Source: Bacteroidota bacterium
Lineage (GTDB): Bacteria > Bacteroidota > Bacteroidia > B-17B0 > Aurantibacillaceae
NCBI GenBank assembly: GCA_013816615.1
Contig: JACDED010000014.1
Coordinates: 11,967 to 55,639 of the forward strand
Direction of reading: 5' to 3'
Length of the DNA stretch: 43,673 nt
Notes under the pieces: model-generated
What the model was told of the DNA's origin: nothing
Databases searched by the model: none
The model's input: the letters and a program-made list of their open reading frames with translations, nothing else
Position numbers and translations under genes: made by a program
Shown here: positions 5,474 through 16,213 of the stretch, one piece after another
How the letters are laid out: each line of letters begins with the position of its first letter
How positions within the stretch are numbered: the stretch's first letter is position 1

Positions 5474-5485
5474 TTTTTATTTTTG

Positions 5486-5556
5486 TAGCCCCTGACCGAA
5501 TCGAACGATCACTTAATGGATGTAAGCCATTTATTCTACCTTTAAATTAAGGAGCT
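5486..5556 (-). tRNA. tRNA-Val(UAC)
   Basis: Acceptor AGCTCCT/AGGGGCT with one wobble, anticodon arm AATGG CTTACAT CCATT, T loop TTCGATT. The D stem is short (ATT/AAT). Confidence 0.85.
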
Positions 5557-5596
5557 TTGTTTTTTTATTTCTTACCCTTTGTTTCATTTTATAAAG

Positions 5597-5670
5597 TGGA
5601 GCGGATGAGAATCGAACTCACCACAATCTGCTTGCAAAGCAAACTCGCCGGCCTTGGTAGATGACACCCC
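5597..5670 (-). tRNA. tRNA-Ala(UGC), unusual D arm
   Basis: Acceptor GGGGTGT/CCGCTCC gives six of seven pairs. The anticodon arm TTTGC TTTGCAA GCAGA presents UGC. The D arm cannot be drawn in standard form; it contains GGCCGGC, a GC-rich stretch unlike the neighbours. Identity follows from the anticodon only. Confidence 0.65.
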
Positions 5671-5675
5671 TTTTG

Positions 5676-5747
5676 TTGCTTTAGCAGGAATTGAACCTGC
5701 AGCCTCCGACTTATGAGATCGTTGCTCCACCATTGAGCTATAAAGCA
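5676..5747 (-). tRNA. tRNA with CAU anticodon (Met, or Ile2)
   Basis: Acceptor TGCTTTA/TAAAGCA is perfect. D arm GCTC/GAGC. Anticodon loop CTCATAA presents CAU. Whether it is elongator Met or lysidine-modified Ile cannot be told from the gene alone; it lacks initiator features. Confidence 0.8.
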
Positions 5748-5758
5748 GTTTTATTTTG

Positions 5759-5831
5759 TTGTCTTAGCAGGACTTGAACCTACAACCTTCGACGTATCAG
5801 ATCGCTGCTCCACCAATTGAGCTATAAGACA
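5759..5831 (-). tRNA. tRNA-Ile(GAU)
   Basis: Acceptor TGTCTTA/TAAGACA, D arm GCTC/GAGC, anticodon loop CTGATAC giving GAU, T loop TTCAAGT. It is similar in sequence to the preceding CAU tRNA, which suggests local duplication. Confidence 0.85.
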
Positions 5832-5839
5832 TTATTATG

Positions 5840-5915
5840 AGGACAGAAACAGAATCGAACTGTTATTAAATTAGTTTTGCAGACTAATACCGAAACCAAT
5901 ATTGGTTACCTGTCC
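5840..5915 (-). tRNA. tRNA-Cys(GCA) with palindromic D loop
   Basis: Acceptor GGACAGG/TCTGTCC with a terminal wobble, anticodon arm TTAGT CTGCAAA ACTAA giving GCA, T arm AACAG TTCGATT CTGTT. The D region is dominated by the perfect 14-nt palindrome AACCAATATTGGTT (5894-5907). Confidence 0.75.
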
Positions 5916-5924
5916 TTTTTATTT

Positions 5925-5955
5925 CTGAAAAGAAAAATAAAAAAATTCTTTTCAG
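5925..5955. repeat. inverted repeat in spacer
   Basis: Perfect 8-bp arms CTGAAAAG and CTTTTCAG around a 15-nt A-rich loop, between the Cys and the next tRNA-like gene. Confidence 0.6.
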
Positions 5956-5960
5956 CCTTG

Positions 5961-6032
5961 AGCGAAATATCAGGATCGAACTGCATCCTCCCGACTGAAG
6001 TCGGGATGCTTTACCATTAAGCTATATTTCGC
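5961..6032 (-). tRNA. tRNA-like gene with palindromic anticodon arm (undetermined identity)
   Basis: Acceptor GCGAAAT/ATTTCGC is perfect, D arm GCTT/AAGC and T loop TTCGATC are normal. The anticodon arm is the 16-nt palindrome CCCGACTTCAGTCGGG, one base short of a normal arm: five pairs leave a 6-nt loop CTTCAG. The nearly identical arm at 7401-7417 has 17 nt and a normal loop. Confidence 0.55.
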
Positions 6033-6036
6033 ATAG

Positions 6037-6108
6037 TATTCCCAGCGGGATTTGAACCCGCGTCTGGTCATTGAAAGTGACCGATCCTAACCACTAGAAG
6101 ATGAGAAC
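6037..6108 (-). tRNA. tRNA-Glu(UUC)
   Basis: Acceptor GTTCTCA/TGGGAAT pairs with two G-T wobbles. D loop TAGTGGTTA is Glu-like. Anticodon arm GGTCA CTTTCAA TGACC, T arm GCGGG TTCAAAT CCCGC. Confidence 0.88.
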
Positions 6109-6258
6109 ATATATTCCTCCTCTTCAATTTCATTTTTGGCATTCATCATTTCTCTTTTTTAAAAATTATTTTTTCTTTTTTAATTTCAGAGTAACAGTTG
6201 GGGAATTTCCTACATTTTTAAATAAGGCTTTGCCCACTATTTACTATTACTCTATTCG

Positions 6259-6327
6259 CACATCCACAAAGAATCGAACTCTGTCCCGTCGTTTTGGAGA
6301 CGACCCGGCTACCTTAGCCCTAGATGT
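6259..6327 (-). tRNA. tRNA-Trp(CCA)
   Basis: Acceptor ACATCTA/TGGATGT with one wobble, anticodon arm GTCGT CTCCAAA ACGAC, T arm CAGAG TTCGATT CTTTG. The D arm is short (GCT AAGGT AGC). Confidence 0.82.
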
Positions 6328-6333
6328 ATTTTG

Positions 6334-6441
6334 CGGTTTATAAGGGAATCGAACCCTTATCTTCCGATAGACAGTCGGAGATAATTGCCTACCCAATGGC
6401 CCGCTCAAAAGCTCACCGGGCTTTTGCCGTACCAATAAACC
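6334..6441 (-). tRNA. tRNA-Asp(GUC) with hairpin inserted between acceptor and D arm
   Basis: Acceptor GGTTTAT (6435-6441) pairs perfectly with ATAAACC. Anticodon arm TCCGA CTGTCTA TCGGA gives GUC and T arm AAGGG TTCGATT CCCTT is normal. Between acceptor and D arm (ATTG/CAAT) are 37 nt instead of 2. They fold into a hairpin (CAAAAG/CTTTTG inside TGG/CCA) that contains one copy of a 31-nt repeat found again at 6547. Confidence 0.6.
6402..6432. repeat. 31-nt hairpin repeat, copy 1 (inside tRNA-Asp)
   Basis: The two copies are identical except for four central bases (CGGG here, AGAA in copy 2). Core: GCTCAAAAGCTCAC, 4 variable bases, CTTTTGCCGTAC. The arms CAAAAG and CTTTTG form a stem-loop. 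Confidence 0.65.
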
Positions 6442-6546
6442 AATTCTTTGGTAGATGCTTGTGTTTTGCAAAAGGCTTTTTCAAACTTTGCTCTCATTGT
6501 CATCGAGCCACGGCCTCTAACCGCTCCTTTTACCTTCGCTCATGCT

Positions 6547-6577
6547 CGCTCAAAAGCTCACAGAACTTTTGCCGTAC
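6547..6577. repeat. 31-nt hairpin repeat, copy 2
   Basis: Second copy of the element inserted in tRNA-Asp, here in spacer DNA. Differences are restricted to the loop-proximal four bases. Confidence 0.65.
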
Positions 6578-6721
6578 TTCGACAAAAACACAGCAACACT
6601 TTTTTGCATCTACCCGGTGTACCTTTAATGGCTTACCGATTTTTTCAGGGCTAACTCGCTTCGCTCGTTGATCCTTTAAGTTCCAAAGTCATAATACAAA
6701 AAGTGATCCTTCGGATCCGCG

Positions 6722-6776
6722 TTTTAATTTTCTTACACTTATGAAAGCAAGCTTTCAATGTTGTAGAAAATTAAAA
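6722..6776. repeat. long nested hairpin
   Basis: Perfect 12-bp outer arms TTTTAATTTTCT and AGAAAATTAAAA enclose a second perfect palindrome TGAAAGC AA GCTTTCA (6742-6757). Confidence 0.65.
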
Positions 6777-6805
6777 TCCTTGCGAATACTTTTTGTATTC
6801 ATTTG

Positions 6806-6878
6806 CGGAAAAGGCAGGGTTCGAACCTGCTACCCTCTGATTAACAATCAGTCGCTCATCCATATGAGCCTCTCGTCC
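6806..6878 (-). tRNA. tRNA-Asn(GUU)
   Basis: Acceptor GGACGAG/CTTTTCC has one mismatch. D arm GCTC/GAGC, anticodon loop TTGTTAA giving GUU, T arm GCAGG TTCGAAC CCTGC. Confidence 0.85.
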
Positions 6879-6888
6879 ATTTTTATTG

Positions 6889-6961
6889 TCGGCCTGCCGG
6901 GACTCGAACCCGGGGCTCCCGTCTTAAAAGGACGGTACTCTACCAACTGAGTTACAAACCG
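6889..6961 (-). tRNA. tRNA-Lys(UUU), copy 2
   Basis: The most canonical tRNA of the array: acceptor CGGTTTG/CAGGCCG, D arm ACTC/GAGT, anticodon arm CCGTC CTTTTAA GACGG, T arm CCGGG TTCGAGT CCCGG. Confidence 0.92.
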
Positions 6962-7009
6962 AATTACAAATTTCACTTACATGAAATTTTATTTTTATTA
7001 CTTACTATT

Positions 7010-7327
7010 TTAAAGTGTTTTTACAAAACCTTTGCATTCACACTCAATTGCTTTACCAAAAATGGTCCAGGTCCATCCATTCTCGTAACCATGATTATTG
7101 GCAATTAAAAAACCTTTGTTCGCATCGGTTTTAATAATTTTATGCGCATCAATAAACCGGCCTCTTACTTTACAAAACACAATGTCTTTTATTTTGTACT
7201 CTTCTTCTTTTTTAAACGTGAGTGTTGAACCGCTTTTTAATATTGGTAACATTGAGTTTCCGAAACATTTCATTCTTCCAATACCGGTTGTTTCGAGTTC
7301 CAGTTTGAGTCTTTCATATTTATTCAT
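7010..7327 (-). CDS. S24/S26-like peptidase domain protein
   Basis: This 105-residue protein is little more than a LexA/signal-peptidase fold. It has GNSMLPIL with the candidate nucleophile Ser near residue 25, and DAHKII with a candidate general-base Lys near residue 62, in the spacing seen in S24/S26 peptidases. There is no DNA-binding domain and no membrane segment, so it is neither a complete LexA-type repressor nor a normal signal peptidase. Such stand-alone domains occur in phages and mobile regions. It lies between tRNA-Lys copies 2 and 3 on the same strand and could be co-transcribed with the array. Substrate unknown; it might process a regulator (inference). Start ATG preceded by A-rich sequence. 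Confidence 0.65.
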   Translation of the reverse strand: MNKYERLKLELETTGIGRMKCFGNSMLPILKSGSTLTFKKEEEYKIKDIVFCKVRGRFIDAHKIIKTDANKGFLIANNHGYENGWTWTIFGKAIECECKGFVKTL

Positions 7328-7368
7328 TTTTTATTATAGTAGGACTTTAACGTAAAGTCTTTTTTCTG

Positions 7369-7444
7369 AGCCGACAGCAAGAGTTGAACTTGCTTACCCT
7401 CCCGACTAAAAGTCGGGACGCTCTGGCCTCTGAGCTATGCCGGC
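7369..7444 (-). tRNA. tRNA with UUU anticodon (Lys copy 3), palindromic anticodon arm
   Basis: Acceptor GCCGGCA/TGTCGGC with one wobble, D arm GCTC/GAGC, T arm GCAAG TTCAACT CTTGC. The anticodon arm CCCGACTTTTAGTCGGG (7401-7417) is a perfect palindrome that still keeps five pairs and a 7-nt loop CTTTTAG. Given the related 16-nt arm at 5990-6005, the UUU may be a by-product of palindrome replacement and not a true Lys identity. Confidence 0.65.
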
Positions 7445-7455
7445 ATTTATTTTTT

Positions 7456-7486
7456 GTGACCTTAATGAGATTAACGCGTTGATCTC
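7456..7486 (-). pseudogene. 3' fragment of the interrupted tRNA at 7604, ending in a palindrome
   Basis: GTGACCTTAATGAGATT (7456-7472) repeats exactly the 3' end of the tRNA at 7604. It then runs into a 20-nt near-perfect palindrome centred on AACGCGTT (7467-7486) instead of a T loop. It is a partial duplication. Confidence 0.6.
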
Positions 7487-7503
7487 GTTTGGCAGTTCTG
7501 CAA

Positions 7504-7597
7504 AACAATCCTAAAATGTTTACATTTTATTTTGCTTGTTCATAGATCCAAAAACAAGCTTTTGATCTATTCACTCCGCAAAACATTTGGATTGTTT
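7504..7597. repeat. long nested hairpin in spacer
   Basis: Outer arms begin AACAATCC (7504) and end GGATTGTT, about 16 pairs with one bulge. Inside is a second hairpin with ATAGATC and GATCTAT arms around CAAAA/TTTTG. It lies between the 3' fragment and the interrupted tRNA. Confidence 0.6.
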
Positions 7598-7603
7598 TTT
7601 TCG

Positions 7604-7796
7604 TGACCTTAATGAGATTCGAACTCATATTTTCTTTCGAACAGTATGGTTGTAAATACGCTTCCCTACTTTAGTATATCCATTTCGGTGCAACTGTAAA
7701 TTATACTCACTACAACGCGTGGTCGTAGCCAGATCCCATACACTCCGTGGTTAAGCCTAAATTTTACCACAGCTTTTCCTTTTAAGCTACAAGGTC
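7604..7796 (-). tRNA. interrupted tRNA, insert of about 130 nt, identity unknown
   Basis: Acceptor GACCTTG (7790-7796)/TAAGGTC pairs with one wobble. The D arm GCTT/AAGC and T arm ATGAG TTCGAAT CTCAT are normal. Where a 17-nt anticodon arm and variable loop belong there are about 140 nt with several hairpins (GTGGT/ACCAC; CTACGAC CACGC GTTGTAG; distant GTATGG/CCATAC). No anticodon arm can be assigned. It is too short for a known self-splicing intron. Confidence 0.5.
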
Positions 7797-7811
7797 TTAT
7801 TTCAATGAACG

Positions 7812-8363
7812 TTATTTATATTTCCACTTATCAATGTGTTGTATAAATATTTTAGCAATATTTCTGGCATCATCTATTCCCCGGTGATGCGTTCCATCTA
7901 TTTGCAGCTTTTCAATTTTTAATGCACCTGCCATTCCAATTGGCCTTTGCAATTTTTTTATCTCTGCATATTGGTGCTTTAAACTAATGTGATGGTTTAA
8001 CCAATTTGTTCCGAGCTTATGTAATTCGCAATCACTTTTAAATTGAGATTTGTCATAAAATCCCCAACTGCAAAGCATATAATCTTCATTTACATTTATC
8101 CAGTTCTTAAACCTTTCAATAACTTCTTTAAAAGATTCTGCCGCATCTATATCGTTTTGTTTAATAGTTGTAAGCTTTTTACAAAACTCTGATAACACAG
8201 GGTTTATTAATGGCTTTACAAATTCACTAAACTCGCTTTGAATTTCACCTTCTGTATTTATGCACACTGCACCGATCTCGATTATTTCATTTTTCTTTTG
8301 TAGGTCTTTATTCTCCCAACACGTTGCTTCTAAGTCAACAATTATATATTTCATTTTTTTCAT
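7812..8363 (-). CDS. DEDDh 3'-5' exonuclease, ERI-1/RNase T-like
   Basis: This 183-residue protein is a single exonuclease domain. The first acidic motif is IVDLEATCWE (Asp and Glu near residues 10-12). The second Asp lies in the middle block near CSWGFYDKSQF. The last motif HHRGIDDARNIA supplies the general-base His and final Asp, so all DEDDh residues are present. The ATCWE variant is typical of ERI-1/KapD-type enzymes that trim RNA 3' ends. Its place inside a tRNA array, 16 nt upstream of an interrupted tRNA on the same strand, suggests tRNA 3' trimming or turnover (inference). A WYL-type dyad with a promoter-like sequence lies 28-48 nt upstream. Translation could also start at the second Met, three codons in. 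Confidence 0.82.
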   Translation of the reverse strand: MKKMKYIIVDLEATCWENKDLQKKNEIIEIGAVCINTEGEIQSEFSEFVKPLINPVLSEFCKKLTTIKQNDIDAAESFKEVIERFKNWINVNEDYMLCSWGFYDKSQFKSDCELHKLGTNWLNHHISLKHQYAEIKKLQRPIGMAGALKIEKLQIDGTHHRGIDDARNIAKIFIQHIDKWKYK

Positions 8364-8390
8364 TTTTATTAAAACAAAGGTTTATACTCA

Positions 8391-8411
8391 CTGCGTAATC
8401 AAATTGCGCAG
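8391..8411. promoter_or_regulatory. putative WYL-regulator operator 2
   Basis: Dyad CTGCGTA-N7-TGCGCAG with one mismatch between arms. On the minus strand it overlaps the -33 side of a promoter-like sequence (TATAAACCTTTG) just upstream of the exonuclease gene. Confidence 0.6.
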
Positions 8412-8491
8412 CAAATCATTTTGTCCTCTTTTTTATTAAGTTATTGATGCTGAACTATAATAAATTAGAAACGGTTACTTTTTTCGGCCAT

Positions 8492-8512
8492 CTGCGTAAA
8501 TACATTGCGTAG
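8492..8512. promoter_or_regulatory. putative WYL-regulator operator 3 (autoregulatory)
   Basis: Dyad CTGCGTA-N7-TGCGTAG, 42 nt upstream of the WYL start codon and 15 nt upstream of a -7 element TATCTTTA (8527-8534). Confidence 0.6.
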
Positions 8513-8526
8513 TGTTTTTAATTTTT

Positions 8527-8534
8527 TATCTTTA
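8527..8534 (+). promoter_or_regulatory. -7 promoter element of the WYL gene
   Basis: TATCTTTA fits the Bacteroidota TAnnTTTG element with one change. It lies 20 nt upstream of the start codon and follows operator 3. Confidence 0.5.
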
Positions 8535-8554
8535 ACTGCTCAAATTTTTATCTT

Positions 8555-9574
8555 ATGCCAATAAATAAACTAGCGCTGGTGCGTTACAAAACAATTGATA
8601 ACTGTTTACAGAACCGTTTTCGTAAATGGACCCTGGAAGACCTTGTGGAAGCTTGCTCTGACGCCATTTATGAATACGAAGGCATTACAAAAGGTGTTAG
8701 CGTTCGTACCATTCAACTCGATCTTCAAAACATGCGTAGCGAAAAACTGGGTTATAACGCGCCGATCATTGTAAACGATAAAAAGTTTTATTGTTACGAA
8801 GACAAAAATTACAGCATTACCAATATTCCCTTAACCTCTCAGGACCTTGGCACATTAAACGAAGTAGTAGAAGTTTTAAAACAATTTAAAGGTTTCTCTT
8901 ACTTTGAAGAACTAACCGGCATGGTAACAAAGCTTGAAGACAAACTCTACAAACAACAAAACAAAGGCCGTTCGTATATTGAATTTGAAAAGAACGAATT
9001 ATTAAAAGGCTTACAATTTATTGACCCTTTATTAAAATCCATAATCAACAAAAAAACTTTATTGATACATTACAAATCTTTTAAAGCCCGTCAACCAATT
9101 GAAATAATATTCTTTCCTTATTTACTTAAAGAATACCGCAACCGTTGGTTCATCTTAGGCAAAGCAAAAAAAGGCGATGCTATTATGAATTTAGCGCTTG
9201 ACAGGATAGAACTTATTGCAGACGCTGAAAAAGAAAAATACCAAAAAGCAGAGTTTGATGTTTTAACTTATTATCAGCATGCAATTGGTGTAAGTATTAT
9301 GCCAAATCAAAAAACAGATCTCATCGTTCTTAAAATATTAAAAGAACATGCGCCTTATATTTTAACCAAACCAATTCATTCAAGCCAAACAATTCTTAAA
9401 GAAGAAACAGACGGAACTATTTTTTCGATAGAAGTTATTTGGAATTTTGAATTAGAACGCGAGCTTTTAGGCTTCGGTGAACAACTCACAATACTTTCAC
9501 CACAACGACTTTCAAGAAAGATCCAATCGCGTTTAAAAAATACACTTTCAAAATATCAAAGAACAGATAACTAA
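8555..9574 (+). CDS. WYL-domain transcriptional regulator
   Basis: This 339-residue protein has an N-terminal winged-helix region (about 1-85, with SVRTIQLDLQNM as recognition-helix pattern), a linker, a WYL domain (about 145-235, with LLIHYKSF, EIIFFPYLLKEYRNRWFILGKAK and LALDRIEL) and a C-terminal WCX-like extension. Such proteins bind palindromic DNA and sense nucleic acids or nucleotides; relatives (BrxR, CapW) control phage-defence islands. It is the only plus-strand gene in the tRNA array and ends 3 nt from the 3' end of tRNA-Tyr, so it is embedded, not a neighbour. A dyad upstream recurs in front of the exonuclease gene and the last two tRNAs, which makes it the likely regulator of this locus (inference). 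Confidence 0.85.
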   Translation: MPINKLALVRYKTIDNCLQNRFRKWTLEDLVEACSDAIYEYEGITKGVSVRTIQLDLQNMRSEKLGYNAPIIVNDKKFYCYEDKNYSITNIPLTSQDLGTLNEVVEVLKQFKGFSYFEELTGMVTKLEDKLYKQQNKGRSYIEFEKNELLKGLQFIDPLLKSIINKKTLLIHYKSFKARQPIEIIFFPYLLKEYRNRWFILGKAKKGDAIMNLALDRIELIADAEKEKYQKAEFDVLTYYQHAIGVSIMPNQKTDLIVLKILKEHAPYILTKPIHSSQTILKEETDGTIFSIEVIWNFELERELLGFGEQLTILSPQRLSRKIQSRLKNTLSKYQRTDN

Positions 9575-9577
9575 CAG

Positions 9578-9659
9578 TGGGAATGATAGGATTCGAACCT
9601 ATTAAGCCGAAGCACCGGTTTTACAGACCGGCCTGACTCTCCAACGTCAGCGCATTCCC
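9578..9659 (-). tRNA. tRNA-Tyr(GUA)
   Basis: Type II tRNA: acceptor GGGAATG/CATTCCC, anticodon arm CCGGT CTGTAAA ACCGG, long variable arm with TGCTTCGGCT, T arm ATAGG TTCGAAT CCTAT. Confidence 0.92.
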
Positions 9660-9662
9660 AAG

Positions 9663-9735
9663 GGTGAGATAGGAGAATCGAACTCGTATCTTTGGCTTCA
9701 CAAACCAGTGTGTTAACCTTTACACTAATCTCACC
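9663..9735 (-). tRNA. tRNA-His(GUG)
   Basis: Acceptor GTGAGAT/ATCTCAC plus an extra G at -1 (9735) opposite C73, the His identity pair. D arm GTGT/ACAC, anticodon loop TTGTGAA. The presence of G-1:C73 argues that the gene is functional. Confidence 0.9.
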
Positions 9736-9747
9736 ATATATGTTTTG

Positions 9748-9820
9748 TCGAGTGCGCAGGAATCGAACCTACTAACTGATGCTTCCAATGCACCCGTGCT
9801 TAAACCTTAGTCACCACTCG
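9748..9820 (-). tRNA. tRNA-Pro(UGG), copy 1
   Basis: Acceptor CGAGTGG/GCACTCG with one G-G mismatch. Anticodon loop ATTGGAA presents UGG but has A37 instead of the usual G37. T arm GTAGG TTCGATT CCTGC. Confidence 0.78.
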
Positions 9821-9823
9821 TTG

Positions 9824-9896
9824 TCGGGAAGGCAGGACTCGAACCTACAGCCAAATGCTCCCAAAGCACTCCATCTACCAATTGAAATACTTCCCG
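9824..9896 (-). tRNA. tRNA-Pro(UGG), copy 2
   Basis: Acceptor CGGGAAG/CTTCCCG is perfect, anticodon loop TTTGGGA has the Pro-typical G37, T arm GTAGG TTCGAGT CCTGC. Confidence 0.85.
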
Positions 9897-9907
9897 ATAT
9901 TTTTTTG

Positions 9908-9981
9908 ACGATCTGTAAGGACTCGAACCTTAAACCTCCTGATTCGTATTCAGGCGCTCCTCCGAATTGAGCTACAGATCG
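9908..9981 (-). tRNA. tRNA-Arg(ACG)
   Basis: Acceptor CGATCTG/CAGATCG, D arm GCTC/GAGC, anticodon arm CCTGA ATACGAA TCAGG. A34 would be edited to inosine. Confidence 0.9.
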
Positions 9982-9996
9982 TTTTTATTTTTATTG

Positions 9997-10069
9997 TGGA
10001 CAAGAGTGAAATCGAATCACTTTCTTTCCGTCTTCAGCGGAACGCATACACCGCGTCTGCCACTTGTCC
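9997..10069 (-). tRNA. tRNA-Phe(GAA)
   Basis: Acceptor GGACAAG/CTTGTCC, anticodon arm TTCCG CTGAAGA CGGAA, T arm AGTGA TTCGATT TCACT. The D arm resembles that of Leu tRNAs (GGCAGACGC), unusual for Phe. Confidence 0.82.
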
Positions 10070-10143
10070 GTTTGATAGAGATGAAATTATTTTGGTTCAT
10101 CTCTATCTAATAATTAATTATTTACATTCAAACAATTATTCGT

Positions 10144-10470
10144 TTAATTTATATCAGGATACTGCGCATCCAGTTTATCTATTACACTAAAAGGAGAACC
10201 ACCTATACCCGAATATGTAATTTCAGGAAAACCATTTTCTTTTGTGATCAAAGAATCTTTTTCATCAATTGCACCACGGTATTTATCAAACCCTTTCTTG
10301 TTTTCTATCTTACCTGTTGAAGGATTATAACTTCCCCAATCAGCTGCTCTATCCGGACCAATAGGTTCAATAAAATAAGTTTTGCCTGTTCGGTAGGATA
10401 CAACAATAAATCTTCCAGAATCATCCTTGTTTGTCAAAAATTGTTTTCTAAATTCTACTGTCGTTTTCAT
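10144..10470 (-). CDS. unrecognised 108-residue soluble protein
   Basis: I do not recognise this protein. It is soluble, rich in Lys, Asp and Gly, with no signal peptide, membrane segment or metal-binding motif. A central stretch (IVVSYRTGKTYFIEPIGPDRAADWGSYNP, given here only as the region around residues 22-50) looks like beta strands with a conserved-looking GPDRAADWG turn. It sits on the array strand between tRNA-Phe and tRNA-Ile(UAU), with 74 nt on each side, and can be co-transcribed with the tRNAs. It may belong with the WYL regulator, exonuclease and S24-like protein as cargo of the array. The start ATG at 10470 is preceded by an A-rich region (AAAAAATAAGGT). Confidence 0.6.
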   Translation of the reverse strand: MKTTVEFRKQFLTNKDDSGRFIVVSYRTGKTYFIEPIGPDRAADWGSYNPSTGKIENKKGFDKYRGAIDEKDSLITKENGFPEITYSGIGGSPFSVIDKLDAQYPDIN

Positions 10471-10541
10471 ACCTTATTTTTTATTTTCTTACTATCTCTT
10501 TTTTAGCCGGATAGTTTTTGCTTTGTTATGTTTTTATTTTG

Positions 10542-10614
10542 TTGAGATAACAGGATTTGAACCTATAACCTTGTGCGTATAAGGCACCCGCTCTTACCAT
10601 TGAGCTATATCCCA
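10542..10614 (-). tRNA. tRNA-Ile(UAU)
   Basis: Acceptor TGGGATA/TATCTCA with one wobble, D arm GCTC/GAGC, anticodon loop CTTATAC giving UAU. UAU-Ile is rare in bacteria, where AUA is usually read by lysidine-modified CAU tRNA. Confidence 0.8.
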
Positions 10615-10619
10615 TTTTG

Positions 10620-10702
10620 CGGAAGGTATAGGAATCGAACCCTGGCATTGTTGCCCGCTCAAGATTTCAAGTCTTGTTGTGTACCACTACACGCTACCTT
10701 CC
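10620..10702 (-). tRNA. tRNA-Ser(UGA)
   Basis: Type II tRNA: acceptor GGAAGGT/ACCTTCC, anticodon arm CAAGA CTTGAAA TCTTG, long variable arm, T loop TTCGATT. Confidence 0.9.
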
Positions 10703-10706
10703 ATTG

Positions 10707-10789
10707 CGGAGAAATGAGTTACCGACACCCATACATTGCTGTACGCTTTGCTTAGCAAGCAAGCCTGAGCCCCGCCCAGTTATTTCTCC
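10707..10789 (-). tRNA. tRNA-Ser(GCU) with degenerate T loop
   Basis: Type II tRNA: acceptor GGAGAAA/TTTCTCC, anticodon arm CTTGC TTGCTAA GCAAA, long variable arm. The T stem TGGGT/ACTCA forms, but the loop is GTCGGTA in place of TTCRANN, losing T54 and A58. Confidence 0.72.
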
Positions 10790-10804
10790 TTTTTTATTTT
10801 TATG

Positions 10805-10878
10805 TATACCCGGTGAAACTCGAACCCACAATTGTACAGGGTTTAAACCTGTTGCGATTGCCGTTACGCCACGGATAT
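10805..10878 (-). tRNA. tRNA with UAA anticodon (Leu), short variable loop
   Basis: Acceptor ATATCCG/CGGGTAT with a wobble, D arm GCG/CGC, anticodon arm ACAGG TTTAAAC CCTGT. The variable region is only about 6 nt, whereas bacterial Leu tRNAs have a long variable arm. Confidence 0.75.
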
Positions 10879-10926
10879 ATTTATTTTTACATAACGGTTT
10901 ACACCTTTACGCTTTCTACATCATTG

Positions 10927-11001
10927 TACCCTCTATGGGACTCGAACCCACACTCTACGGTTTCTAAAACCGTTGCCTCTGCCGAATTGGGCTAAGAGGG
11001 T
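10927..11001 (-). tRNA. tRNA with UAG anticodon (Leu), short variable loop
   Basis: Acceptor ACCCTCT/AGAGGGT is perfect, anticodon arm ACGGT TTTAGAA ACCGT, T arm GTGGG TTCGAGT CCCAT. The variable loop is about 5 nt, again short for a Leu tRNA. Confidence 0.78.
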
Positions 11002-11055
11002 CTTATATGGGTTAACTCCGTTGATCCACAGTAGAGTTAATGCTCAACAAAATAT

Positions 11056-11148
11056 CAAGCTTCGCTTGCTCGTAGAATAGTTGCCAATTCATATTCAAAC
11101 ACGTTTGATATTCATTACCAACTATTCTACAAAACGACGAGTCGTTTT
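11056..11148. repeat. cluster of three palindromes in spacer
   Basis: CAAGC TTC GCTTG (11056-11068); a long hairpin with perfect 12-bp arms GTAGAATAGTTG (11072-11083) and CAACTATTCTAC (11119-11130) enclosing CAAAC/GTTTG; and AAAACGAC GA GTCGTTTT (11131-11148). Confidence 0.65.
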
Positions 11149-11157
11149 ATTTTGTTG

Positions 11158-11230
11158 TTGTCGGAAATGGATTCGAACCACTATCTTCAGATTCAAACTC
11201 TGATGTCGCTACCAGTTAGACGATCCGACA
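11158..11230 (-). tRNA. tRNA-Gln(UUG), first gene of the array
   Basis: Acceptor TGTCGGA/TCCGACA is perfect, D arm GTC/GAC, anticodon arm TCAGA GTTTGAA TCTGA, T arm AGTGG TTCGAAT CCATT. Confidence 0.9.
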
Positions 11231-11363
11231 AAATATTTTTAAAACAAAAAGCCCGATCACTTATGCAGAGACCGGGCCTATTAAAAAATAGAGCATACGA
11301 TTCCCTGTCAAAATAATTTGTTTGAAAAAACCTAACTGTTGGCATACTGATACTATGCTTCAT
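11193..11363 (-). CDS. putative leader ORF 2 upstream of the tRNA array
   Basis: ATG at 11361-11363 opens a 56-codon frame that runs through a terminator hairpin and ends inside tRNA-Gln, so only its first part can be a leader. The 29 codons before the hairpin use 17 different amino acids, including His. A run of six T just before the hairpin would, on a -1 slip, give an immediate TAA stop ahead of the stem (inference). It has no resemblance to a protein family I know. Alternative: a chance ORF in a transcribed spacer. It lies between terminator 1 and terminator 2. Confidence 0.35.
   Translation of the reverse strand: MKHSISMPTVRFFQTNYFDRESYALFFNRPGLCISDRAFCFKNILSDRLTGSDIRV
11246..11277 (-). 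terminator. intrinsic terminator/attenuator 2 before tRNA-Gln
   Basis: Minus-strand stem GCCCGGTC/GATCGGGC (eight pairs, one wobble) with an 11-nt loop, followed by TTTTTGTTTT. It stands 16 nt upstream of the first tRNA. Confidence 0.75.
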
Positions 11364-11383
11364 TTTGTTTTTATTTAAAATAA

Positions 11384-11409
11384 AAAACCCCGGCGTTTTG
11401 CCTCGGGGT
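11384..11409 (-). terminator. intrinsic terminator/attenuator 1 after leader ORF 1
   Basis: Minus-strand stem AACCCC/GGGGTT plus inner GGC/GCC around AAAAC, followed by a U run (TTTTTTATTTT). It begins about 30 nt after the leader ORF 1 stop. Confidence 0.8.
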
Positions 11410-11439
11410 TTAAATAAATATTTAATTCTATTAAATTCT

Positions 11440-11520
11440 TTACATAAACCCACGATCACACTCTAGCGGCGAAACCCCTATCTGGCGAGCAATTTGACTA
11501 TATGTAAATAAATTCTTCAT
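11440..11520 (-). CDS. putative leader peptide 1 (26 residues) upstream of the tRNA array
   Basis: A 26-codon ORF with ATG at 11518-11520, about 15 nt after the predicted transcription start and followed by a strong terminator. It begins MKNLFTYSQIARQ and ends CDRGFM. It uses 18 different amino acids in 26 residues, missing only His and Trp, with no run of any one residue. This differs from classical attenuators, which repeat the regulatory amino acid. A ribosome would need almost every charged tRNA to finish it, which suits a sensor of general tRNA shortage (inference). Alternative: the segment SQIARQIGVS looks like a helix-turn-helix scrap, so it might be a remnant of another gene. Confidence 0.5.
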   Translation of the reverse strand: MKNLFTYSQIARQIGVSPLECDRGFM

Positions 11521-11824
11521 GTTTTTTTATAATTCTATGATACAAATGTAAATCAAATTTTTCGAACCAAAAAAATTATTTTTTATAAAAAGGGTGAATG
11601 ATACTTTTTAGAATAATAGTTTAGAGGCCAAACGTCCAGTAAAATCAATAGTTACAGGCCAAAATAAAAAAATAAATTTATTTTTAAAATATTATTTTTT
11701 ACTGAGTGAAATTAGTTTTTCATTTAGGGAGTTGAATTTGAATCTTTCTTAAAGCTTAAAAAAAGAATTTATTGCATTTAAAAGTCATTTCTCGCTTTCA
11801 ATACCTCTTAAACGTAAATATGTT
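11521..11824. other. 304-nt intergenic region before the array leader
   Basis: Very AT-rich. Apart from the array promoter (11543-11550) I see no gene, repeat or convincing terminator between the end of the macro-domain gene and the leader. Confidence 0.6.
11543..11550 (-). promoter_or_regulatory. -7 promoter element of the tRNA-array leader
   Basis: TACATTTG on the minus strand is an exact TAnnTTTG. Transcription would start near 11535, about 15 nt before leader ORF 1. A TTTG-containing stretch lies upstream as a possible -33 element. Confidence 0.6.
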
Positions 11825-12298
11825 TTAAAAATCATAAACAGTTACAGGATTTTCTTTTTCCAAAAGTGTTCTCTTGATTATCGGTTCCATTTTATCCCAT
11901 TTGCCGCCTGCAAGACCACAACCGATTCTCGGCATATGAATACTGGCATTTATCGATTTGGCAAAATCAGAAACCTTATTTAAACCATTTTCAATTGCAT
12001 CATATCTTATTGGAGGATCATTGTTTTCATCCTCGTTTATTTTATGCTGCCCGATAAGATTAGCGATCCAAAGATCAGTCTCAACTTTTACGAATTGGAC
12101 TTCCCCCAACTGAAAATTATCTTTCTTTGAAAACCATTCGCGATAAGCTTTCTCGGGTTCTTTCCACTTCTTAGAAATAGCCATAACAAAACCTTTTCCC
12201 CATCCGCCAATATCATTGCAAACATGCACAATAATTTTATTTCCAGTGTCAGAAGGAGATGTTGCATCACCTTTTAAATATTTGATCTCAAAATTCAT
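11825..12298 (-). CDS. macro-domain protein (ADP-ribose-1''-phosphate phosphatase / ADP-ribose hydrolase type)
   Basis: This 157-residue protein is one macro domain. Visible motifs are the N-terminal YLKGDAT strand-loop, VHVCNDIGGWGKGF (adenine/ribose pocket with catalytic-type Asn-Asp and Gly-rich loop) and MPRIGCGLAGGKW (second phosphate-binding loop). The IGGWGKG form is typical of the Poa1p/ALC1-like branch that removes ADP-ribose phosphate or deacylates ADP-ribosyl groups. It is the last gene of the NAD salvage operon, one base after the NAMPT gene. It probably recycles or repairs ADP-ribose derivatives produced when NAD is consumed. The exact substrate cannot be told from sequence. Confidence 0.82.
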   Translation of the reverse strand: MNFEIKYLKGDATSPSDTGNKIIVHVCNDIGGWGKGFVMAISKKWKEPEKAYREWFSKKDNFQLGEVQFVKVETDLWIANLIGQHKINEDENNDPPIRYDAIENGLNKVSDFAKSINASIHMPRIGCGLAGGKWDKMEPIIKRTLLEKENPVTVYDF

Positions 12299-12299
12299 G

Positions 12300-13799
12300 T
12301 TATACGTTTAAAACAGTAGCGTGTTTTTCTAAAGCACTATTTATTCTTTTTCTGATGTCAGAAAGCGATTGCTCATTCATTCCCTTTCCATTCTCAAAAA
12401 CAGTTTGTAACAAGCCTTGTTTTTCTTCTTCCCATGTACACTGGTCTTTCATTTTTAATTCCCCGTCTACTTCCGTAACCTGCATTAAACCTTTTGCTGA
12501 GCGTTTAGTACCATCATCTGTTTTTGGATCTTTAAAAATATTTCTAGGTTCGCCATTTACTTCACCATAAGTTGCTTTCATGGCAAAACCATAAGTATCG
12601 CGGGTAACATATTCGTATGTATAAGAACCAATGCCCAATACAACATTAAAGGAAGCAAATCCTTTTTCTTTTAAGCCTTCTAAAATTGCTTTCTGACGTT
12701 GAAGTGTAATGCTATCACCATAAATTAATCCAATGTGCGAATCCAATAATTTAAATCCTTTATCAGTGATCGTTCCACCAAAAGTTTCCCACATACACTC
12801 AATAGCGCCTTTAAATTCAGGGCTTCCCGGAGTAGCATCTTTGTCCCCAATAATAATCTTCACAGGATCGCCGCTATCAGGACGAATAACCACTTTACCA
12901 TCACGTGCTAAAATCTTTGATTTCAACTCCGGTAAAAATTCAGTGATCACTTTCCAGAAATCCCAGGTATCCGAAACGATCGAAACAATTCCGTTCGGAT
13001 ATAAATGAGAGATCAATCTTTCAAACGTTCCGATCTCGTCATCTTTTGTACCCATACACATTACCGAATGCTCTGTTGCAGGAACACTACCGCCAATTAA
13101 TTCTTTATCAGAATTTGCATTGTAATACAATTCATGAAAATCAATTGCAGGCACTGTATCTGTTCCATAAAATGAAAGTAAATGCCCCGCAGCGCTCATA
13201 CAGGCATCTTCAATTCCACTCATTCCGCGAAAACTAAAATCATGTCCTTGCCAGTAAACAAAATCAATATTATTATCGCTTACAGTTGAGCGTGCATATT
13301 CATTAAATGTTTTACGGTATTGAAAAGCTGTAGTAGCGCTTGTTGCGGGCTTCCATAAAATGGCAGACATTAACAACTCAAGATAATTAGTCAACCAGAA
13401 AAATTTTGGTTGTGTATTGTAAACAGTAACTACCGGAATTTTTGGCGATACAATTGAACCTTCGGGTAACCCTTTTACAATTAAAGGTAAGTAACCAAGA
13501 TCGTGCAACTCTGCAATATGTTCAACAGGAATACTATCTTTTCCCAAAGCATTATCCATTCGGCGTTTATAATCGGCCATCACTATTTCTTTTGGCAAAT
13601 TAAAAAAGCCTTCATTCCATTGTTTAATCAAATATTCCTTTACTAAATATTGTAATCCGAAAAACACCAATTTATCGTTATCAGCTTGTCGCGATTTGCG
13701 TGGCGTAAAATTAGAATAAACCATTTCTGTTCCTTCAGGGTATTGTCTACGATGATCTGCTTTATAAAAGTCGATCAACATTAAGGGATTAATTTTCAT
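12300..13799 (-). CDS. nadV: nicotinamide phosphoribosyltransferase (NAMPT/NadV)
   Basis: This 499-residue protein matches NAMPT over its full length: N-terminal INPLMLIDFYKADH, NFTPRKSR, then GGSVPATEHSVM with the active-site His, SDTWDFWKV and RPDSGDPV in the phosphoribosyl-binding region, and KGLMQV near the end. It converts nicotinamide and PRPP to nicotinamide mononucleotide, a one-step entry into NAD salvage in the cytoplasm. A PRPP synthetase gene lies upstream in the same operon to supply the co-substrate, and NrtR controls both. It overlaps the preceding gene by 11 bases. The combination NAMPT plus PRPP synthetase also occurs on phages as an NAD-rebuilding pathway, but here the whole operon looks chromosomal. 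Confidence 0.93.
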   Translation of the reverse strand: MKINPLMLIDFYKADHRRQYPEGTEMVYSNFTPRKSRQADNDKLVFFGLQYLVKEYLIKQWNEGFFNLPKEIVMADYKRRMDNALGKDSIPVEHIAELHDLGYLPLIVKGLPEGSIVSPKIPVVTVYNTQPKFFWLTNYLELLMSAILWKPATSATTAFQYRKTFNEYARSTVSDNNIDFVYWQGHDFSFRGMSGIEDACMSAAGHLLSFYGTDTVPAIDFHELYYNANSDKELIGGSVPATEHSVMCMGTKDDEIGTFERLISHLYPNGIVSIVSDTWDFWKVITEFLPELKSKILARDGKVVIRPDSGDPVKIIIGDKDATPGSPEFKGAIECMWETFGGTITDKGFKLLDSHIGLIYGDSITLQRQKAILEGLKEKGFASFNVVLGIGSYTYEYVTRDTYGFAMKATYGEVNGEPRNIFKDPKTDDGTKRSAKGLMQVTEVDGELKMKDQCTWEEEKQGLLQTVFENGKGMNEQSLSDIRKRINSALEKHATVLNV

Positions 13800-14256
13800 A
13801 ATTTTTGTTTTTTATTTTTGTAATTATTTCTTCTAAATTGTTTACCTGTTCGATATTATATTTTTTGCACACAACGTCAATATTTCCTTTTCTCCAAAAA
13901 CCATCGGGACAACACACTATTATTTTTCCGGTTCTTGCAAAAAGGCCCAGCTCCAGCATACTTACCGGTGATTTAGTTTCAGGTGAAAAATAAAACACGA
14001 TCATGTTTGCTTTTTCAAGCCCTTCCAATTCCCAAGTCACCTGTTCGTTAAACTGTTTGTTTTCTATGGATTGTTTCCATGATGAATCCCAATCGTCACG
14101 ACGAGGGTTCAAGATACAAATATGTTCTGTTTCTTCAAGAGCTTGTTCAATTTTTTGTTGCCAGTTCTGGGCAATGCCCATTTCTATAGAACCTGCTAAG
14201 AAAACGGAAAATTTATCCTGAATTGCATTTAAATTATGTGGAGGTTTTATGATCAT
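13789..14256 (-). CDS. nucleoside 2-deoxyribosyltransferase-like protein
   Basis: This 155-residue protein has the fold pattern of the nucleoside 2-deoxyribosyltransferase/DUF4406 superfamily: VFLAGSIEMG at the N-terminus, NPRRDDWD, then WELEGLEKANMIVFYFSP, and SMLELGLFA with the conserved Glu. These enzymes break N-glycosidic bonds of nucleosides or nucleotides. In this operon it could act on nicotinamide riboside or a damaged NAD precursor, or hydrolyse deoxynucleotides; this is inference. It overlaps both neighbours (4 bases with the HAD gene, 11 with nadV), so co-translation is likely. Confidence 0.75.
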   Translation of the reverse strand: MIIKPPHNLNAIQDKFSVFLAGSIEMGIAQNWQQKIEQALEETEHICILNPRRDDWDSSWKQSIENKQFNEQVTWELEGLEKANMIVFYFSPETKSPVSMLELGLFARTGKIIVCCPDGFWRKGNIDVVCKKYNIEQVNNLEEIITKIKNKNYEN

Positions 14257-14675
14257 TTTACTGTTTCGGTATTTTTAATTTCATGAATTAGTTTTTGCAA
14301 TAAATCCACCGAAGCATATAAACTTGCGCGATCATCAAGGTAAATATTTGCGTATACTTTTCCGTTGGTAACCAATCCTGGGATTTCAGGGGGAGATTGA
14401 TTAAAATAATGGTAAGGAAGGTTTATCTTTTTTAGTTTTTCTTTAATTCCATCCCAGCGCCTCTCTTCTGCTGCGGTAAATACGATCAATGTACAATTCA
14501 AATCGTTTAACTCATGTATCAGGTTATGAATAACTTTATAATCATCTTCTGATTCATGATCATGAAAAGGTAATACTGTACTATCCACATCATAAGCCAC
14601 AATTATCTTTCCGTATTTTAACCATTCTTCTTTTAAACGGTTAAAAGTTATTTCGTAACTTAAATAGCGGCTCAT
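14253..14675 (-). CDS. HAD-superfamily phosphatase
   Basis: This 140-residue protein is a small HAD hydrolase without a cap. Motif I is AYDVDSTVLPF (nucleophile Asp near residue 28), motif II LIVFTAAEER (Thr), and the C-terminal acidic motif is NIYLDDRA (Asp-Asp). All catalytic positions are present. It overlaps the PRPP synthetase gene by four bases (ATGA) and the next gene by four. A role as a nucleotide or sugar-phosphate phosphatase that clears a by-product of the pathway is plausible but unproven. Similar short HAD proteins are common in phage genomes. Confidence 0.8.
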   Translation of the reverse strand: MSRYLSYEITFNRLKEEWLKYGKIIVAYDVDSTVLPFHDHESEDDYKVIHNLIHELNDLNCTLIVFTAAEERRWDGIKEKLKKINLPYHYFNQSPPEIPGLVTNGKVYANIYLDDRASLYASVDLLQKLIHEIKNTETVK

Positions 14676-15499
14676 GATTGAAATAAATTATACTGTTTAT
14701 AAAATTCGTTCTCTTCAATGTTAGAAATTGAATTAGAACTTCCAACATTTTTGTATCCTGCTTCTTTTAATCTGTCTAAAGCGTTATGGCTAAAAATACC
14801 GTGCGAGGCAATAAAATAAAGGTCACCTGCATTTTTTACTTTTAAGGCTGTTGCTAATTCAATAAAGGTTCTGCCGCCATCACAAATATCATCTACTATA
14901 ATGCAGGCTTTTCCATTTAAACTATCCGTATTCACATCACTTTTTACAATTTGCCCTGTTGCAAGATCTCTTACTTTTATTCCAGTAGCAATATTGCCTT
15001 TGTAATTTATTTTTTGTGCCAGCTTATCTACCTTTTTATAAGCACCAAGATCGGGAGACACTAAAACGTAATCTGTTAATTTTACTTTTTTTAGAAAGTC
15101 ATTTACCATATCGTAATTAGCAGTATTCTGACAATTATTTATTAATGCTGTAGAAACTTCGCTATGTGCATCAAACACAATAACCTTATTTAGATTTAAA
15201 CTATTAAGGATGTTTGCAAATACCTTTATAGATAATGGCTCACCGGGAACCATAACCCTGTCTTGCCTTGCATAAGGAATGTAAGGAATAAACACTTCTA
15301 TATAATTTACATACATATTACGAAGCGCATTAACAGCCAGGCATAAATTCATAACATCGTCTGAAGAATTAAGACGGGTATTAATTCTTACTTTATCATT
15401 TTCAGAAAATGTGATTAAAAATTTAACGTGACATTCGCCGCCTGCAAATTTTTTTAATTCTACTGTTTCGTTTGTTTCAAATAAGTGTATTGTTTTCAT
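14672..15499 (-). CDS. prs: ribose-phosphate pyrophosphokinase (PRPP synthetase)
   Basis: This 275-residue protein is shorter than housekeeping PRPP synthetases (about 310). It keeps VFIPYIPYARQDR, the flexible ATP loop region, VVSPDLGA-like LVSPDLGAYKKV, and the PRPP-binding loop CIIVDDICDGGRT. It makes PRPP from ribose 5-phosphate and ATP for the NAMPT reaction encoded downstream. Gene order NrtR, prs, HAD, deoxyribosyltransferase-like, nadV, macro gives one minus-strand operon. It is probably a dedicated, divergent copy and not the housekeeping enzyme; that second copy is not visible here. Start ATG lies 13 nt after the nrtR stop. Confidence 0.9.
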   Translation of the reverse strand: MKTIHLFETNETVELKKFAGGECHVKFLITFSENDKVRINTRLNSSDDVMNLCLAVNALRNMYVNYIEVFIPYIPYARQDRVMVPGEPLSIKVFANILNSLNLNKVIVFDAHSEVSTALINNCQNTANYDMVNDFLKKVKLTDYVLVSPDLGAYKKVDKLAQKINYKGNIATGIKVRDLATGQIVKSDVNTDSLNGKACIIVDDICDGGRTFIELATALKVKNAGDLYFIASHGIFSHNALDRLKEAGYKNVGSSNSISNIEENEFYKQYNLFQS

Positions 15500-15511
15500 A
15501 TCGTTTGTTTT

Positions 15512-16213
15512 TTAAAGTTCAAAGTGAATTCCTTTTTGTGTTAATTCTTTATACGCTTTTTTATCGAAGCTATAAAAGCGTGCGGCTTTGTGCGCTACGT
15601 TTTTTTCCTTTTCTTCCAGCGCTTTCAAAAATCCCATGCCTAATATTTTTTTTCGAAAATTTCGTTTATCAATTGGTTCTTCTAAAATTGCTTCGTACAA
15701 AGCCTGTAATTGTGTTAGTGTAAATTTTTCGTTCAGTAGTTCAAAACCAATTGGTTGATATGAAACTTTTCCTTTTAAACGTTGAATGGCTGTTTTTACA
15801 ATTTTGCTATGGTCAAAAGCAAGTTTTGGTACTTTAGAAAGCTCAAACCACTCTGCCTTTAATGTATCACGACCGGCAATTACTTCGTATTGTTGCGTGT
15901 TTACCAAAGCAAAATATGCAACTGAAATAATCCTTTCACGTGGATCGCGTTCTATCTCACTAAAAGTATAAAGCTGTTCAATAAAAACATTTTTGATTCC
16001 GGCTTTTTCTAAAAGAATTCGTTTGGCGCATTCTTCGGTTGTTTCCTGCATAAAAACAAAACCTCCGGGTAAGGACCATTTGTTTTTGAATGGTTCTTTT
16101 TCACGCTCGATCAATAATAATTTTAATTCGCCGCCATCAAAACCAAACATCACACAATCACTTGCAAGTGCGGGGCGTTCATATTCGTATTTATATTTTG
16201 AGTTTTGTTTCAT
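15512..16213 (-). CDS. nrtR: NrtR-type NAD-metabolism repressor (Nudix-related)
   Basis: This 233-residue protein has an N-terminal Nudix domain (about 15-140) and a C-terminal winged helix (about 150-225, with LLNEKFTLTQLQALYEAI and KRNFRKKILGMGFL). The Nudix box after GGFVFMQETTEECAKRILLEKAGI-type sequence (residues about 50-73) lacks two of the catalytic acidic residues of RExxEE, as expected for a ligand-sensing regulator. NrtR proteins bind ADP-ribose and repress NAD genes. It is the first gene of the NAD salvage operon, and two 21-nt dyads lie just upstream, so autorepression is well supported. Confidence 0.88.
   Translation of the reverse strand: MKQNSKYKYEYERPALASDCVMFGFDGGELKLLLIEREKEPFKNKWSLPGGFVFMQETTEECAKRILLEKAGIKNVFIEQLYTFSEIERDPRERIISVAYFALVNTQQYEVIAGRDTLKAEWFELSKVPKLAFDHSKIVKTAIQRLKGKVSYQPIGFELLNEKFTLTQLQALYEAILEEPIDKRNFRKKILGMGFLKALEEKEKNVAHKAARFYSFDKKAYKELTQKGIHFEL

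Follow-up and report, generated by a model that had tools for sequence, protein, structure and literature searches.

Attenuators are taught as devices that sense a single amino acid or a few of them. In the scheme of the trp and phe type, region 1 of the leader can pair with region 2, region 2 with region 3, and region 3 with region 4.

Several described systems come close to the locus that we report here, and each is cited from the examined part of its paper. The upstream open reading frames (uORFs) of whiB7 and toiL sense several translation stresses, and whiB7 has been reported to respond to amino-acid starvation (PMC12121999, PMC13236596). In Anabaena, the repressor TrcR controls the trn operon, a long spare tRNA array that remains silent until translation is under stress (PMC10272220). 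Neither 'leader' nor 'attenuat' appears in the main text of that report. In Salmonella, the rsr-yrlBA-rtcBA repair operon is activated by RtcR, which binds cut tRNA (PMC7790460). In mgtCBR, two attenuators in tandem answer to different signals, ATP and proline, and their effects are additive (PMC3641672). Jumbo phages combine tRNAs, RNA ligases, TROVE and Thg1 (PMC7824862), and tRNA gene clusters have been catalogued (PMC6409571). Our literature search covered mostly papers outside subscription. Among the matches listed, there were no attenuators before tRNA arrays or RNA-repair genes, and no many-residue leaders.

Here, we analyse a window of 43,673 nucleotides from a member of the Aurantibacillaceae (Bacteroidota; contig JACDED010000014.1), in which a leader region with two short open reading frames (ORFs) precedes a long array of tRNA genes.

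The leader region and the tRNA array

The layout from 11571 to 11246 (minus strand) is that of a promoter-like box, followed by ORF1, a terminator, a second ORF and a second terminator. The features of the locus are, in window coordinates:

11543 to 11571, minus strand: promoter-like site TTTG-N17-TACATTTG of the Bacteroidota type, 22 nt 5' of ORF1
11440 to 11520, minus strand: leader ORF1, MKNLFTYSQIARQIGVSPLECDRGFM and stop, 26 codons, 18 kinds of amino acid, without His and Trp
11496 to 11508, minus strand: region 1 (TTTACATA...), which can pair with region 2
11438 to 11451, minus strand: region 2 (GGGTTTATGTAAAG), the last codons and stop of ORF1 and the 5' arm of the antiterminator
11385 to 11411, minus strand: terminator 1 hairpin, whose 5' arm is region 3; the T run extends to about 11382
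11308 to 11363, minus strand: leader ORF2 up to the relatives' stop, 18 codons in the two nearest relatives and out of frame by one base in the window
11293 to 11307, minus strand: post-stop antiterminator arm of leader 2 (CAGGGAATCGTATGC), whose 2:3 swap test was made on the relatives' second leaders
11250 to 11278, minus strand: terminator 2 hairpin, some 20 nt ahead of tRNA-Gln; the T run extends to about 11245
11157 to 11230, minus strand: tRNA-Gln(TTG), first gene of the array, after terminator 2
4987 to 11230, minus strand: tRNA array, with 22 (ARAGORN) or 23 (Rfam) tRNA genes on this strand

The first-pass annotation of this DNA had described ORF1 as 26 residues of 18 different kinds followed by a terminator, and the sequence bears this out, with both the stem and the T run of terminator 1 in place. 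It had also named a proteome-wide control. Here, 18 kinds in 26 residues are found in 0.47% of proteome windows and 0.75% of nucleotide shuffles, which makes ORF1 unusual and is not decisive alone. What counts is therefore the excess across many leaders.

The assignment of the promoter-like site follows what we take to be the Bacteroidota promoter consensus. TACATTTG is present upstream of 15 of the 30 first leaders considered below, and TANNTTTG upstream of 23 of the 30. Within the window, the full promoter pattern is not above chance (3 found, 4.0 expected). A simple terminator scan of the window listed neither of the two leader terminators, probably because of their bulge and long loops. 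The folding energy of the window leader is better than that of 100/100 shuffles (z -3.1).

The source genome contains at least 52 tRNA matches, a lower bound from 150 scored candidates out of 375, of which 20 are on the array contig and 32 elsewhere. When compared with the other tRNAs of the genome, the array tRNAs have 38-57 identical positions of 74-85 (18 same-anticodon comparisons). This low identity makes the array a divergent, largely second tRNA set. A search of the window's own genome for an RNA ligase, run without a positive control, found none.

Two other origins of the locus were considered and rejected. Rfam at gathering thresholds gave tRNA matches only, and no T-box, in the window and eight related loci; a T-box or another Rfam leader was discarded on this ground. 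A phage origin of the window is contradicted by a ccoNO-type cytochrome oxidase, a metal P-type ATPase, Usp and other cellular genes.

A group of NAD-related genes lies directly upstream of the leader promoter (window 11825-16213, minus strand). It comprises an NrtR-type NUDIX regulator, a PRPP-synthetase-like and a nucleoside deoxyribosyltransferase-like protein, NAMPT (12300-13799) and a small protein that matches PHROG 335 ('phosphatase'). The latter appears macro-domain-like by eye and has no Pfam match. Relatives of the NAMPT are found on 80 viral contigs, some of which carry tRNA arrays. Within the array itself (window 6960-9574), there are genes for a Peptidase_S24-like protein, an RNase_T exonuclease and a divergent WYL-domain regulator. 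The S24 and RNase_T genes also occur in the island of one relative (L163), and ORFs of the length of the WYL gene in several.

The second reading frame and its terminator

The second ATG lies at 11363. The first 29 codons of the window's ORF2 contain 17 kinds of amino acid, His included, and the union with ORF1 is 19 kinds, as the first-pass annotation had correctly counted. As a unit, the 29-codon frame is not conserved. In the two nearest relatives, ORF2 reads MKHSISMPTVSFFQTNYV and MKHSISMPTVKFFQTNYV, each ended by TGA after 18 codons. The window lacks one base just before the relatives' TGA, and its frame runs past this point into terminator 2. The frameshift is either an assembly error or a real change. 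A -1 slip on a T6 run had been put forward as a means to spare terminator 2 from the ribosome. The two nearest relatives, however, have an in-frame stop before that terminator. With the run-on being a one-base frameshift peculiar to the window copy, no programmed slip is needed.

In an alignment of nine terminator 2 sequences, 90/90 pair cells form, and three of the ten pairs have changed on both sides. A covariance model of the second leader's end (R1) is strong on its own training sites. Beyond these, it returned mostly apparent generic terminators among the roughly 20 weaker places that were fetched.

Related leaders and their neighbouring genes

We collected 31 similar first leaders of 25-34 codons from Chitinophagales and Cytophagales, most of which precede tRNA arrays, RNA ligase or Hen1/Pnkp genes. 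A query composed of the leader and tRNA-Gln matched 71 of 199 related genomes, mostly in the tRNA gene only and in few cases in leader and array. With R2, a covariance model trained on 12 first-leader sequences, the element was located in 16 of the 87 genomes of the window's family, at 17 places that include the 12 training sequences. Outside the family, R2 matched upstream of RNA ligase with E values of 3e-5 to 0.03 in Chitinophaga, [Flexibacter], Emticicia and Niastella loci and in MAGs.

A similar tRNA island recurs in relatives. It usually starts with tRNA-Gln and tRNA-Leu, and Gln is first in eight of the 12 loci L161-L172. An RNA ligase (PF09414 with a PHA02142 OB domain) separates the leader pair from the tRNAs in several genomes, and is itself followed there by a third leader with a terminator. 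TROVE/Ro60 was confirmed in five of the relatives' islands and Thg1 in two. One genome has the leader followed by two tRNAs and then by Hen1, ligase and Pnkp genes, and in another the leader is followed by a metallophosphoesterase gene.

Four genomes (G010, G022, G026 and G038; L163:3411-3424, L171:4277-4290, L169:9986-9999 and L172:3349-3362) share a conserved element resembling a tRNA D arm, GGTGNCTCAGTAYC, which lies past the second terminator and ahead of the RNA ligase gene. It could be a tRNA mimic or part of a Y-RNA-like molecule.

For named genomes that bear the ligase, the best 80 of 181 loci were searched on both strands with a leader finder that is independent of R2 and combines a short ORF, a terminator and antiterminator energy. 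In these best 80 of 181 loci, the finder returned 28 matches, 25 forward and 3 reverse. Among the forward matches, 23 of 25 are upstream of the ligase at a distance of up to 2 kb; these belong to 17 of the 80 loci. The other 63 have no leader by this finder within 2 kb, and 51 of the 63 had at least 2 kb of upstream sequence. Because the settings were chosen after the first examples, the sensitivity of the finder is not independent; the position of its matches is.

R2, a terminator scan and the finder place leaders ahead of the ligase gene in three Chitinophaga, among them Chitinophaga silvisoli, and in [Flexibacter] sp. ATCC 35208, Niastella and two Taibaiella (Chitinophagales). In Emticicia and Runella zeae (Cytophagales) and in several MAGs, leaders were located in this position as well. 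Four Chitinophaga-like ligase loci contain no tRNA gene within the fetched 15-21 kb. Taibaiella chishuiensis has another leader-like ORF (MQRNNFILTLAGNRYSPLGCAFGGMLYAVG), with a strong antiterminator, 7 kb past the ligase (L240:17149-17241).

Four other Bacteroidia loci with Hen1 or Thg1 served as an out-of-sample set, and none of the four has a leader in the approximately 1.5 kb of upstream sequence examined. This small test suggests that the leader is confined to some lineages and is no general mark of tRNA repair. At the locus L295 (minus strand), upstream of the Hen1 gene of another Bacteroidia genome, the palindrome CTGCGCAAAATAA(C/T)TGCGCA occurs twice, at about 355-375 and about 1440-1460, before a ligase-like gene and before Hen1. 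This suggests a repressor operator in place of a leader.

The neighbourhood of the leaders is partly a product of the search, since most of them were found by searching near a ligase or an array. R2 also identified leaders with other neighbours, one before an MFS gene and one before a gene without a Pfam match (L282). The first of these (L283) is a 24-aa leader with 13 kinds of amino acid and a terminator (MKNTCTYKQWRSVVKLSLSRACYV) ahead of the MFS transporter gene, and it might be an antibiotic-responsive attenuator. In addition, four genomes of another family of the class (L278-L281) have a Phe/Tyr-rich leader of 20 aa, for example MQNTNTYYFGYFYYFSESRG, with a terminator. In the one of the four in which the downstream gene was checked, this gene encodes prephenate dehydratase. 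The Phe/Tyr leader is a textbook attenuator and provides a contrast case found by the same model.

Alternative helices co-vary in first and second leaders

A terminator hairpin is present in 30/30 first leaders, and its 5' arm starts 21-32 nt past the stop codon. The check that had been suggested, namely whether homologous leaders keep their frame while their sequence drifts, came out in favour of the leader. Open frame, length and stop-to-terminator distance are kept, and the residues drift.

The alternative helices were examined by an alignment-free swap test, which compares a leader's own pairing energy with the energy after exchanging partners among leaders. With leaders treated as exchangeable and relatedness inside the groups kept in, helix 2:3 is better with its own than with swapped partners both in the window's family (n = 16, P 2e-5) and in the other leaders (n = 13, P 6e-5), the latter being a mixed group that includes pairs of close relatives. 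On the same terms, helix 1:2 gives P 8e-5 and P 1e-4, respectively. These 29 leaders do not include G019, a near-copy of the window, and the degenerate leader of L087 is excluded from alignment A1. The swapped segments were widened after the first result; in the first version, with 30 leaders pooled, 0/20,000 permutations reached the observed mean for either helix. Helix 2:3 of 19 second leaders likewise exceeds its swapped counterparts (P 2e-5; family subset n = 11, P 4e-5). The frameshifted ORF2 of the window is excluded from this test and from the diversity test of second leaders. Mutually exclusive antiterminator and terminator helices are thus kept by co-variation, and the antiterminator folds that the first-pass annotation had proposed to look for are among those that the leaders can form.

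To model the switch, a ribosome was walked along 30 leaders, with transcripts cut just before the 3' arm of the terminator. If no pairing across the ribosome is permitted, the terminator arm is predicted to be sequestered while the ribosome occupies codons 2-20 (means 0.72-0.82), and sequestration falls to 0.08-0.09 at the last three codons or the stop. If such pairing is allowed, the end positions give 0.49-0.58 and the stop 0.58, with a value of 0.84 for the window at the stop. The arm is also sequestered when the model contains no ribosome (mean 0.81). Given these last two outcomes, an off state requires assumptions of a steric and kinetic nature.

The simplest account of the locus would be ordinary terminators and chance ORFs, that is, end signals of upstream genes plus drifting DNA. 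The frameshift in the window's ORF2 would suit it, as would the fact that a single leader is only a 0.5% event. However, the conserved spacing, the open frames and the better-than-swapped antiterminators in 30 leaders largely contradict this account, and so does the position of all but two of the forward finder matches upstream of the ligase. We give it hardly any credence.

Amino-acid diversity of the leaders

The first leaders are richer in different residues than expected. On average, 30 first leaders contain 16.7 kinds of amino acid, compared with 14.3 in proteome windows and 14.8 in shuffles of their own nucleotides. When relatedness is handled by identity clustering alone, the excess of 31 first leaders amounts to 2.05 kinds in 13 clusters (P 5e-5) and 1.75 kinds in 7 clusters (P 6.5e-4). 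Means, spacing and folding refer to 30 leaders, while clusters, chance ORFs and the removal of region 2 refer to 31, with Runella added. The Phe/Tyr leaders and the MFS leader, which have other neighbours, are not part of the diversity set, and L282 is kept. Third leaders (five loci) stand outside all statistics because two of their anchors did not begin at a start codon.

The excess is not a product of the region-2 codons, as it persists in codons 2 to n-9 (+1.92 kinds; z 4.7 against the proteome, 4.25 against nucleotide shuffles). In the stretch between regions 1 and 2 alone, a weak excess is seen (z ~2). At least 18 kinds are found in 8 of 31 leaders versus 12 of 935 chance ORFs of 25-34 aa from the same loci. 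Taken singly, 20 of the 31 leaders do not exceed chance ORFs at the level of P 0.05. The full set of 20 amino acids is reached within 31 residues in two related leaders of Chitinophagaceae MAGs, the Niastella leader has 19 kinds in 30 and that of Emticicia 19 in 31. The least diverse first leaders are those of G052 (12 kinds) and of Runella and G077 (14 each).

As a group, the leaders have a diversity beyond chance; many single leaders are no more diverse than chance. For single leaders, the word 'universal' is too strong. Trp is present in 12 of the 30 first leaders, Glu in 16, Asp in 17 and His in 18, so that each of these is often missing. Acidic residues are under-represented overall, and Cys is over-represented, partly as a by-product of region 2.

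For second leaders, the excess has a P of 5e-5 when 12 clusters are used and of 0.10 when all are merged into one. The short second leaders of the window's family are of ordinary diversity. Long second leaders (48-59 codons) have 19 or 20 kinds, little above chance at such a length.

Tyr and Gly occur in 30/30 first leaders, and Gln, Ser and Leu in 29/30. Such constancy speaks for an attenuator specific for one residue, e.g. Gln, Tyr or Ser, as does tRNA-Gln being first after the leader in the window and in most of the loci L161-L172. Yet the leaders are not rich in the codons of a regulated amino acid, and have as a group an excess of different residues instead. In 25/31 first leaders, no residue occurs more than four times (the exceptions are CF118, with 7 Leu in 32, and five leaders with one residue five times), whereas the Phe/Tyr leader repeats Tyr 4-5 times and Phe 3-4 times in 20 aa. 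Furthermore, the conserved Thr-Tyr (ACATAT) sits in the helix-forming region 1, and leaders before Pro-first or Phe-first arrays or before the ligase look alike. Residue specificity is thus highly improbable, and we discarded it on the lack of dominant repeats in most leaders.

A broader signal has to be weighed as well. In a general translation-stress attenuator, antibiotics or any elongation block would be sensed, residue identity would be irrelevant and diversity would reflect a lack of bias. The examined text of PMC12121999 offers precedents in the broad uORF sensing of whiB7 (antibiotics, amino-acid starvation) and toiL, and that of PMC10272220 describes induction of the Anabaena spare tRNA operon by translation antibiotics. 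The match of R2 to a leader before an MFS transporter gene points the same way. Against it stands a diversity above neutral expectation, also without the region-2 codons. Most of the leaders found moreover precede genes for tRNA backup or repair, although the majority came from searches of just such neighbourhoods. On balance, we regard a general translation-stress attenuator as rather unlikely.

A proposed mechanism

We propose that the locus probably contains tandem ribosome-controlled attenuators, which are tuned to stalls at almost any codon and hold the spare tRNA set off until tRNAs run short. Transcription would start near 11540. When tRNAs are plentiful, the ribosome would reach the end of the leader ORF and cover region 2, the terminator (3:4) would form and transcription would stop. 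From the folding model we infer that a stall within roughly the first 20 codons would leave region 2 free, allow 2:3 pairing and let the polymerase continue into the tRNA array. In relatives, read-through would reach RNA ligase, Thg1, Hen1/Pnkp or metallophosphoesterase genes. Helix 1:2, between the start and the end of the ORF, may limit read-through of an untranslated leader.

The leader peptide would sample many residues, as a rule with none dominant, and for this reason the loss of many different tRNAs could trigger the switch. Since the switch arm is located at the very end of the ORF, most stalls would be equivalent, and a many-residue leader would then read the general state of the tRNA pool. 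The neighbours of the leader, spare tRNAs and tRNA-repair enzymes, fit tRNA loss as the natural signal, for instance by anticodon nucleases.

With a pair of leaders in series, interruption of both may be needed, which would shape a response to broad tRNA loss, such as that caused by an anticodon nuclease, and not to the lack of a single amino acid. The first-pass annotation had added up the residues of the two leaders and treated the 19 kinds as the sensed set. This sum is not what should matter. As the polymerase must pass both terminators, it is the shared residues that should count, and these number 11 kinds for the window's ORF1 and the relatives' 18-codon ORF2, or 16 with the window's own 29 codons. 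Shared-residue sensing would make the leader pair a possible coincidence detector for broad damage. A strict AND logic is weakened by the precedent of mgtCBR, whose tandem attenuators act additively in the examined text of PMC3641672.

Taken together, the earlier reading of the leader as a tRNA-shortage sensor gains from its conservation, the co-varying helices, the excess diversity and the tRNA and repair neighbours, and loses the summed residues and the claim of universality. A bolder form of the proposal is more tentative, and we give it not quite an even chance. Here, the leaders would have been selected for maximal residue variety (up to 20 kinds in 31 residues) and would act as an integrity sensor for all tRNAs. 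Two, sometimes three, of them in series would form an AND gate for broad tRNA destruction, and they would drive several unrelated backup and repair systems in Chitinophagales and Cytophagales.

If true, this would be an attenuator that reads the whole tRNA pool, and an RNA-only alarm for tRNA-cutting toxins that is tied to spare tRNAs and repair enzymes. It would offer a testable answer to the question of how silent chromosomal tRNA arrays are switched on. The leader would then be a natural reporter that responds broadly to damaged tRNAs, and searches with it could point to new genes for tRNA repair or defence.

Comparison with known systems

Like the trp and phe attenuators, the leader has a short ORF upstream of an intrinsic terminator and alternative helices, and a stalled ribosome is the proposed switch. 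Unlike these attenuators, it usually has no repeated regulatory codon, and the leaders described here sample 12-20 kinds of amino acid. The switch arm is at the very end of the ORF, where stalls in most codons would count, and the neighbouring genes are tRNAs and tRNA repair genes instead of genes for amino-acid synthesis.

The use of one uORF for several translation stresses provides an analogy with whiB7 and toiL. These belong to other phyla and have other targets, and toiL acts on translation, and indirectly on Rho termination, with antibiotic-dependent stall sites (PMC13236596, examined part). The examined text of PMC12121999 and PMC13236596 describes no sampling of amino acids by either uORF.

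The Anabaena trn operon is likewise a long spare tRNA array that is silent until stress, and the RNA ligase RtcB is part of the Anabaena regulon; in contrast to our locus, a DNA-binding repressor controls the operon (PMC10272220, examined part). With rsr-yrlBA-rtcBA, the islands share a Ro60/TROVE protein and an RNA ligase, and the Salmonella operon is induced by tRNA damage. There, however, a CARF-domain activator reads tRNA fragments, whereas the ligase found here is of the PF09414/PHA02142 type (PMC7790460, examined part). The mgtCBR leader resembles ours in having two short ORFs within one leader mRNA (PMC3641672, examined part). Judged from its sequence, the leader is best read as a variant of ribosome-mediated attenuation, one that would work like an attenuator and would not be specific for an amino acid.
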